Assembly (NCBI GenBank): GCA_030523275.1
Contig: JAUNIX010000002.1
Coordinates: forward strand, 1-64,000
Direction of reading: 5' to 3'
DNA: 64,000 nucleotides
Source of the DNA: Lachnospiraceae bacterium
Lineage (GTDB): Bacteria; Bacillota; Clostridia; Lachnospirales; Lachnospiraceae
Shown: positions 1 to 35,382 of the stretch, piece by piece
How the letters are laid out: each line of letters starts with the position of its first letter
How positions within the stretch are numbered: the stretch's first letter is position 1
The notes under the pieces: model-generated
What the model saw: only the letters and a program-made list of their open reading frames with translations
What the model was told of the DNA's origin: nothing
The model's database searches: none
Program-made: the position numbers and the translations under genes

Positions 1-50
1 TCTGTGATTGTTCAGTTTTCAAAGTCCGACGCTGTCGTTTTTGCGACAGC
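1..50 (-). other. rRNA-type leader with boxA-like sequence
   Basis: Read on the minus strand, the transcript from the promoters to its right passes through a hairpin (arms 31-37 and 44-50) and then a CTTTGAAAACTGAACAA sequence at 8-24, which resembles the boxA/antitermination leader found in front of 16S rRNA in Firmicutes. The rRNA genes themselves would lie beyond the left edge, so this is an inference from the leader and promoters. Confidence 0.6.
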
Positions 51-56
51 TTTTAT

Positions 57-85
57 ATATTACCACAGCTTCTTCATCCTGTCAA
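57..85 (-). promoter_or_regulatory. tandem promoter P1 (rRNA-type)
   Basis: Minus-strand -35 TTGACA at 80-85 and -10 TAATAT at 57-62, spacer 17 bp. It is the promoter nearest the presumed rRNA operon, and its transcript would begin with the 31-50 hairpin. Confidence 0.75.
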
Positions 86-143
86 GGACTTTTTTTATTT
101 TTTTTAGCTGCTCTGTTGCTTTGTTTTGTTCAGCAACTTTTAC

Positions 144-172
144 ATTCTATCACAACCATTTTTGTTTGTCAA
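144..172 (-). promoter_or_regulatory. tandem promoter P2 (rRNA-type)
   Basis: Minus-strand -35 TTGACA at 167-172, -10 TAGAAT at 144-149, spacer 17 bp, preceded by an A-rich upstream stretch. A hairpin (115-120 with 132-137) lies at the expected transcript start. It sits exactly 87 bp from P1. Confidence 0.75.
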
Positions 173-230
173 GAACTTTTTTCATCTTTTTTTCGACTGT
201 GTTGCTGTCGTTTTGCGACAACTTTTTTAC

Positions 231-259
231 ATTTTACCAAAACTTTCCTAATCCGTCAA
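231..259 (-). promoter_or_regulatory. tandem promoter P3 (rRNA-type)
   Basis: Minus-strand -35 TTGACG at 254-259, -10 TAAAAT at 231-236, spacer 17 bp, again with a hairpin downstream (206-210 with 216-220). It sits exactly 87 bp from P2. Confidence 0.7.
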
Positions 260-338
260 GAACTTTTTTCAACTTTCAAGTTGTTATTCAACTAACAAGA
301 TTATGTTTTGTATTGCTGTTTTATCAGCAACGAATGAT

Positions 339-367
339 ATATTATCATTATAAATCCTTTTTGTCAA
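339..367 (-). promoter_or_regulatory. tandem promoter P4 (rRNA-type)
   Basis: Minus-strand -35 TTGACA at 362-367, -10 TAATAT at 339-344, spacer 17 bp, with a hairpin (313-318 with 325-330) downstream. It sits 108 bp from P3 and overlaps the upstream flank of the divergent luxS promoter. Confidence 0.7.
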
Positions 368-384
368 CACTTTTTTCTTTGTTC

Positions 385-413
385 TTGTATTTATTTTATG
401 TTGCTTATATAAT
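385..413 (+). promoter_or_regulatory. luxS promoter
   Basis: -35 TTGTAT at 385-390 and a perfect TATAAT at 408-413 with a 17-bp spacer, about 30 bp upstream of the luxS start codon and divergent from the rRNA-type promoters. Confidence 0.7.
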
Positions 414-444
414 AGACATAATAATATTTTGGAGGTGTTTAATT

Positions 445-927
445 ATGGACAAAATTGCAAGTTTTACTGTAAATCATTTGGATCTACTTCCAGGCATTTA
501 TGTTTCAAGAAAAGATTATATCGGTGAAGAGGTTCTAACTACTTTCGATTTGCGCTTGACCGCCCCGAATAGAGAACCAGTTATGAACACTGCCGAAATT
601 CATACGGTTGAGCATTTAGCAGCTACTTACCTTAGAAACCATGAGATTTATAAAGATAAAATCATTTATTTTGGGCCCATGGGATGTCGAACAGGGTTTT
701 ATTTAATAGTTGCTGGAGATTATACTTCAAAAGAAATTCTTCCATTGGTAACATCAACATTTGAATTTATACGTGATTATTCTGATGAGATTCCCGGCGC
801 ACACCCTAGGGATTGTGGCAACTATTTAGATATGAATCTCCCAATGGCAAACTATTTAGCCAAACGTTATTTAGATTATACCCTTTATCAGGCAACTGAT
901 AAAAATCTAAATTATCCAAAAGCCTGA
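445..927 (+). CDS. luxS: S-ribosylhomocysteine lyase LuxS
   Basis: Cleaves S-ribosylhomocysteine to homocysteine and 4,5-dihydroxy-2,3-pentanedione, the AI-2 precursor, in the activated methyl cycle; cytosolic. The 160-aa product has the usual family length. The metal site is visible as the HTVEH motif (H53, E56, H57) plus C124 in DCGNY, with C81 in the GCRTGF loop as the catalytic cysteine. The reading frame stays open upstream for about 440 bases, but GGAGGTG at 431-437 fixes the ATG at 445, and the upstream part is promoter DNA. It is a single-gene unit with its own promoter. Identity is secure. Confidence 0.97.
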   Translation: MDKIASFTVNHLDLLPGIYVSRKDYIGEEVLTTFDLRLTAPNREPVMNTAEIHTVEHLAATYLRNHEIYKDKIIYFGPMGCRTGFYLIVAGDYTSKEILPLVTSTFEFIRDYSDEIPGAHPRDCGNYLDMNLPMANYLAKRYLDYTLYQATDKNLNYPKA

Positions 928-1050: not shown

Positions 1051-1101
1051 AAATAGAAAGATACCGGCAATACTAACAATTGTCGGTATCTTTCTATTTT
1101 A
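1050..1101. terminator. bidirectional terminator, luxS and ABC-F
   Basis: Twenty-base arms at 1050-1069 and 1081-1100 pair almost perfectly around an 11-base loop. The stem reaches the stop codon of the ABC-F gene and serves the converging luxS transcript as well. Confidence 0.8.
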
Positions 1102-35252: not shown

Positions 35253-35325
35253 AGCGCGAGACGGGACTCGAACCCGCGACCCCGACCTTGGCAAGGTCGT
35301 GCTCCACCAACTGAGCCACTCGCGC
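35253..35325 (-). tRNA. tRNA-Gly (anticodon GCC)
   Basis: A 73-nt cloverleaf: acceptor GCGCGAG with CTCGCGC, D-arm GCTC/GAGC, anticodon stem CGACC/GGTCG around loop TTGCCAA with anticodon GCC, T-arm GCGGG/CCCGT with TTCGAGT, discriminator U. CCA is not encoded. It is a single tRNA with its own promoter and terminator. Confidence 0.96.
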
Positions 35326-35353
35326 ATATTTGCTATCTCTCAAGCACTCGTTT

Positions 35354-35382
35354 ATAATATCATAAGAGATAGCACATGTCAA
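35354..35382 (-). promoter_or_regulatory. tRNA-Gly promoter
   Basis: Minus-strand -35 TTGACA (35377-35382) and -10 TATTAT (35354-35359), spacer 17 bp, with an A-rich stretch upstream; the same AAAAAAGTTnTTGACA context as the promoters at 57-367. Confidence 0.8.

Follow-up and report, generated by a model that had tools for sequence, protein, structure and literature searches.

Tandem promoters with predicted 5'-terminal RNA hairpins in the promoter region of an rRNA operon from a Lachnospiraceae bacterium

The window analysed here is the whole stretch of 64 000 nucleotides at C42:1–64000 of the assembly of a Lachnospiraceae bacterium (G000), and its base 1 is the physical first base of contig C42. 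The first 390 bp carry four predicted promoters on the minus strand, each accompanied by a small predicted hairpin, and a boxA-like leader that lies between the promoters and the contig end. The features of the region are as follows.

445–927, plus strand: luxS (S-ribosylhomocysteine lyase), an ORF divergent from the promoter array and forming its upstream boundary
339–367, minus strand: P4 core promoter, TTGACA-17-TAATAT; -35 at 367–362, -10 at 344–339
312–331, minus strand: P4 hairpin, GTTGCTG-ATAAAA-CAGCAAT; -8.0 kcal/mol, z -5.1; starts at predicted +2
231–259, minus strand: P3 core promoter, TTGACG-17-TAAAAT; -35 at 259–254, -10 at 236–231
204–222, minus strand: P3 hairpin, GTTGTCG-CAAAA-CGACAGC; -9.1 kcal/mol, z -2.7; starts at predicted +3
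144–172, minus strand: P2 core promoter, TTGACA-17-TAGAAT; -35 at 172–167, -10 at 149–144
115–137, minus strand: P2 hairpin, GTTGCT-11 nt loop-AGCAAC; -7.3 kcal/mol, z -1.2; starts at predicted +1
57–85, minus strand: P1 core promoter, TTGACA-17-TAATAT, with TGn and an A-tract upstream; -35 at 85–80, -10 at 62–57
31–50, minus strand: P1 hairpin, GCTGTCG-CAAAAA-CGACAGC; -12.0 kcal/mol, z -3.0; starts at predicted +1 (G at 50)
8–24, minus strand: boxA-like rrn antitermination leader, the 17-mer CTTTGAAAACTGAACAA, between the promoters and the contig end

The divergent ORF, which we take to be luxS from a recognised HTVEHLAATYLRN motif, lies ∼80 bp from P4 and has homologues of up to 75% identity in other Lachnospiraceae. 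One contig of another genome (G003, contig C140) seems to share the luxS/array neighbourhood, with a match to window positions 377–439. Between luxS and the gene for an ABC-type ATPase, AAAATAGAAAGATACCGGCAATACTAACAATTGTCGGTATCTTTCTATTTT at window positions 1055–1100 resembles a shared bidirectional terminator.

All four promoters are of the sigma-A type, with a 17-bp spacer and a TG one base upstream of the -10 element (extended -10), and an A-tract precedes each of them. In most units AAAAAAGTT stands upstream of TTGACA. Stable-RNA promoters reportedly share a motif in the DNA adjoining the -35 element on its upstream side, and AAAAAAGTT is similar in this respect; that motif lies upstream of the -35 element, whereas the hairpin lies downstream of +1. 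A strict rule (a match of at least 10/12, a 17-bp spacer and TGn) returned four promoters on the minus strand of the first 390 bp. Applied to dinucleotide shuffles of the same 390 bp, it returned no promoter in 2996 of 3000 shuffles, one in 4 of 3000 and never more than one. The remaining 63.6 kb of the window contained only two strict promoters, one of them upstream of the single tRNA gene of the window. This gene, for tRNA-Gly (35253–35325), has the only other strict minus-strand promoter (TTGACA-17-TATTAT with TGn; region 35253–35382), and its transcript would form a weak imperfect hairpin at the predicted start. The initial annotation had proposed four minus-strand promoters with -35 elements at 80, 167, 254 and 362, spaced by 87, 87 and 108 bp and all with 17-bp spacers, and every element of this description was confirmed. 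A tandem sigma-A array calls for at least two co-directional -35/-10 promoters, and four are predicted here.

Because base 1 is the end of contig C42, the rRNA cannot be seen within the window, and no 16S rRNA gene was found in the organism's own assembly (G000). Missing 16S genes are frequent in assemblies in which repeated operons collapse. The same 25-base leader opens four contigs of the assembly (C42, C17, C64 and C16), at most 30 bases from the first base of each. The boxA-like 17-mer stands at the corresponding place in all four (17/17 in C42 and C17, 16/17 in C64 and C16) and matches nothing in the genome other than this leader, so that a boxA-type leader, as expected of the promoter region of an rRNA operon, is conserved at four contig ends and the boxA-like leader proposed at 8–24 is confirmed at 24–8. 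In genomes of the same genus, the homologous leader runs into the first bases of the 16S rRNA, and their contigs likewise break within 16S; position 1 of the 16S model falls directly 3' of the leader in six such loci (L114–L117, L121 and L122). The assignment of the array to an rRNA operon is therefore made by sequence comparison, from the leader–16S junctions of relatives and not from contig C42. The rRNA operon presumed at the outset is supported in this way, together with the four contigs of the organism itself that begin in the leader. As for the suggested search for 16S to the left, the leader does join 16S in the same genus, whereas contig C42 stops at base 1 in an assembly with no 16S gene.

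Tandem sigma-A promoters before boxA and 16S, with a G start, are also found at B. subtilis rrn P1/P2, with two promoters there against four here; for this part of the comparison, +1 hairpins were examined in Priestia, Lysinibacillus and Paenibacillus. Under the same strict rule, rRNA-upstream loci of the family, taken from both closed and draft genomes, have 1–5 promoters each, and the commonest distance between successive -35 elements is 86–88 bp. The idea that a four-unit array is exceptional was not upheld: operons of the family normally have 1–5 promoters, and the array itself is unremarkable among tandem rRNA promoters, a known type. The other rRNA operons of the same genome could be compared unit by unit, as had been suggested. 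Contig C17 has four promoters as judged by eye, and its P1 and P2 units are near-identical to those of C42 (99% and 95%, respectively); near the leader, C64 has two promoters of this type and C16 one, and tRNA-Ser genes and one more promoter also occur in this region. These tRNA-Ser genes adjoin the promoters and the rRNA leader at C16:81–294 and C64:239–326 of G000 (loci L090 and L089), and similar tRNA-Ser/rRNA leader arrangements occur in four further genomes (G001, G002, G003 and G004). Units within the C42 array are only 47–64% identical to each other, against 95–99% between operons at the same position, which indicates that the array is old and common to the operons and not freshly expanded. 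The recent expansion of a promoter cassette put forward in the initial annotation is rejected on these grounds. From the same alignments, the array appears to have spread across operons by duplication or gene conversion.

The predicted +1 of each promoter was placed from its -10 element using a 6-base discriminator, and the predicted first ∼35 bases from each promoter were folded. P1 and P2 have a G at the predicted +1, while P3 has one at +3 and P4 at +2. Within a transcript of P4 length the P1 hairpin retains pair probabilities of 0.97–1.0; it lies directly upstream of boxA, where an rrn boxB would be. The P2 hairpin is the weakest of the four and by itself is no better than chance. The claim that every promoter has its own small hairpin where the transcript should begin stands, such hairpins being far commoner here than at control promoters, with the P2 hairpin weak when taken alone. 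A comparison with Rfam gave no match in the stretch.

The hairpin was compared across taxa using 137 non-redundant rRNA-upstream promoters and a control set of 196 promoter-like sites from ∼480 kb of luxS-region DNA and the remainder of the window. Fifty of the 137 rRNA-upstream promoters had their best contiguous stem starting at +1 to +3, against 12 of the 196 controls (Fisher p = 4e-12); since the controls are partly chance-level promoter matches, shuffles and an arm-swap test are the better yardstick. The contiguous-stem measure misses bulged stems and stems that reach upstream of +1 in distant taxa, giving 3/17 for the phylum set, and a pairing-probability profile was used in its place. 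Mean pairing of the 5' arm at +1 to +8 was 0.77 for the organism and its genus, 0.67 for the family, 0.58 for the class and 0.67 for the phylum, compared with 0.38–0.41 for shuffles and 0.33 for controls. Folding of the first ∼31 bases gave a mean energy of -6.7 kcal/mol for rRNA-upstream promoters versus -3.6 kcal/mol for their shuffles, and -2.6 versus -2.4 kcal/mol for the controls. The arm-swap test exchanged 3' parts between units after removal of units more than 75% identical, phylogeny being outside its model; stems scoring at least 12 were present in 46% of units and in 20% after the exchange (maximum 31%, 300 permutations), which argues that the arms match within their own unit and do not merely share a common motif. 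Not all stems are equally strong, and some units show little folding (0 kcal/mol for cls_L240). Loop length lies between 3 and 12 nt, and 62% of A-tract units have a G at the predicted +1. The arrangement recurs in named rRNA records, including those of Clostridioides difficile, Acetoanaerobium, Priestia megaterium, Lysinibacillus, Paenibacillus and Streptococcus agalactiae. Hairpins also occur at some tRNA promoters (tRNA-Ser in C64 and tRNA-Lys in L210), with no boxA following. The stem thus begins within a few bases of the predicted +1 and its arms covary, as in a 5'-terminal stem-loop, and the comparisons demonstrate a conserved, base-pair-covarying RNA element that is tied to rRNA promoters across Bacillota and is independent of boxA. 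The literature searched, from which subscription journals and with them the classic work on rrn in B. subtilis are mostly absent, returned no account of +1 hairpins at rRNA promoters; priority for the phylum-wide hairpin is not established. This hairpin with covarying arms is the part of the locus worth following.

The most likely role for the hairpin, we infer, is to close the 5' ends of precursor rRNAs that are not translated, with help in early elongation a close rival. The transcript is predicted to begin with a G, or no more than two bases from one, and all ten rRNA operons of B. subtilis initiate exclusively with GTP (PMC7824091). The nascent 5' end would fold at once into a stem-loop of 5–8 bp starting from +1 to +3 and leaving almost no unpaired 5' nucleotides, and the untranslated pre-rRNA may in this way be shielded from 5'-end-dependent attack, by RppH and then by RNase J, until RNase III-type processing. 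The hairpin may also hinder renewed pairing of the earliest RNA with the DNA. The RppH of B. subtilis acts only on 5' ends with two or more unpaired nucleotides (PMC3997798), so that a stem from +1 should resist RppH and the subsequent RNase J step. Stem-loops at the extreme 5' end of bacterial mRNAs of the ompA and papA class hinder RppH and 5'-sensing ribonucleases (PMC3997798); the hairpins of the array share this extreme 5' position but differ in being on an untranslated pre-rRNA and in coming with the promoter, and any stabilization by them is putative. P3 counts against shielding, since its transcript has two unpaired bases at the 5' end, just enough for RppH. Leaders are usually cleaved from pre-rRNA during transcription, so protection of the 5' end may bring only a short-lived benefit. 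The 86–88 bp spacing approximates the footprint of one RNA polymerase plus UP element and might allow several promoters to be loaded at once, in which case initiation would not be limited by the clearance of a single promoter. With about even confidence, the region can be described as tandem promoters P4-P3-P2-P1 followed by boxA in an rRNA operon, of which the genome has at least four, with the assembly break just before 16S, the promoters being strong extended -10 sigma-A promoters with A-tracts and the conserved hairpin a probable 5'-end shield.

It is conceivable, although we consider it unlikely, that the hairpin functions in initiation and early elongation, where it would form on RNA exit and prevent backtracking, R-loops (by re-annealing) or slow escape at very busy promoters. 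Such a function would fit the fixed position of the hairpin relative to the predicted start, the completion of its arms by about +15 to +25 and its association with rRNA and some tRNA promoters but not with control promoters. Comparably low is the probability we assign to the hairpins serving rrn antitermination as boxB-like elements that, with boxA, help to load Nus factors onto RNA polymerase. The P1 hairpin does lie directly 5' of boxA, the position of boxB in E. coli rrn P2, where the first transcribed bases form a hairpin preceding TGCTCTTTAACA. However, a nut-like rrn boxB would have an obligatory boxA just 3' of the hairpin, and this is true of P1 only; no boxA follows the other three hairpins (P2–P4) or those of tRNA promoters. 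Moreover, boxA is necessary and sufficient in E. coli and deletion of boxB has little effect (PMC10250234). Hairpins at P2–P4 and at some tRNA promoters with no boxA after them imply that the hairpin belongs to the promoter and not to boxA.

Two further explanations are rejected. That the hairpins are intrinsic terminators on the plus strand, which would protect luxS or its promoter region from antisense transcription, is very improbable: two of the four score as terminator-like (GCTGTCG...CGACAGC followed by TTTTATAT, and TGTCG...CGACA followed by CTTTTTT), but the other two do not, the T-run is merely the reverse of the A-rich discriminator, and the G start and the register with +1 are left unexplained. 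Still less credible is the idea that the repeats are DNA operators at which a regulator would cover the start sites, since the perfect or near-perfect palindromes just 3' of the promoters have 3–12 nt loops and compensatory substitutions in their arms, unlike the fixed half-site spacing and sequence of an operator; covarying arms and variable loops point to a transcribed RNA hairpin.

A hairpin that belongs to the promoter bears on the rrn leader of E. coli, in which the presence of boxB has been described as puzzling (PMC10250234). The boxB-boxA-boxC leader resembles the array in having a hairpin at the P1 start and the boxB hairpin at the P2 start; it differs in its larger hairpins, its non-consensus -35 elements and its two promoters. 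In rrnB, rrnC and rrnA (L307, L309 and L311), the P1 transcript starts with a stem-loop of -20.2 kcal/mol and the P2 transcript with the boxB hairpin directly before boxA. We tentatively suggest, as an idea with rather less than an even chance of being correct, that rrn boxB is the 5'-terminal stem-loop of the nearest stable-RNA promoter and not an antitermination element, a relationship that would be visible in Bacillota arrays, with a hairpin for each promoter versus a single boxA. An unexplained part of the rRNA leader would then become a testable promoter-linked element. The P1 and P2 starts of E. coli rrn also hint that 5'-terminal hairpins at rRNA starts may extend beyond Bacillota.
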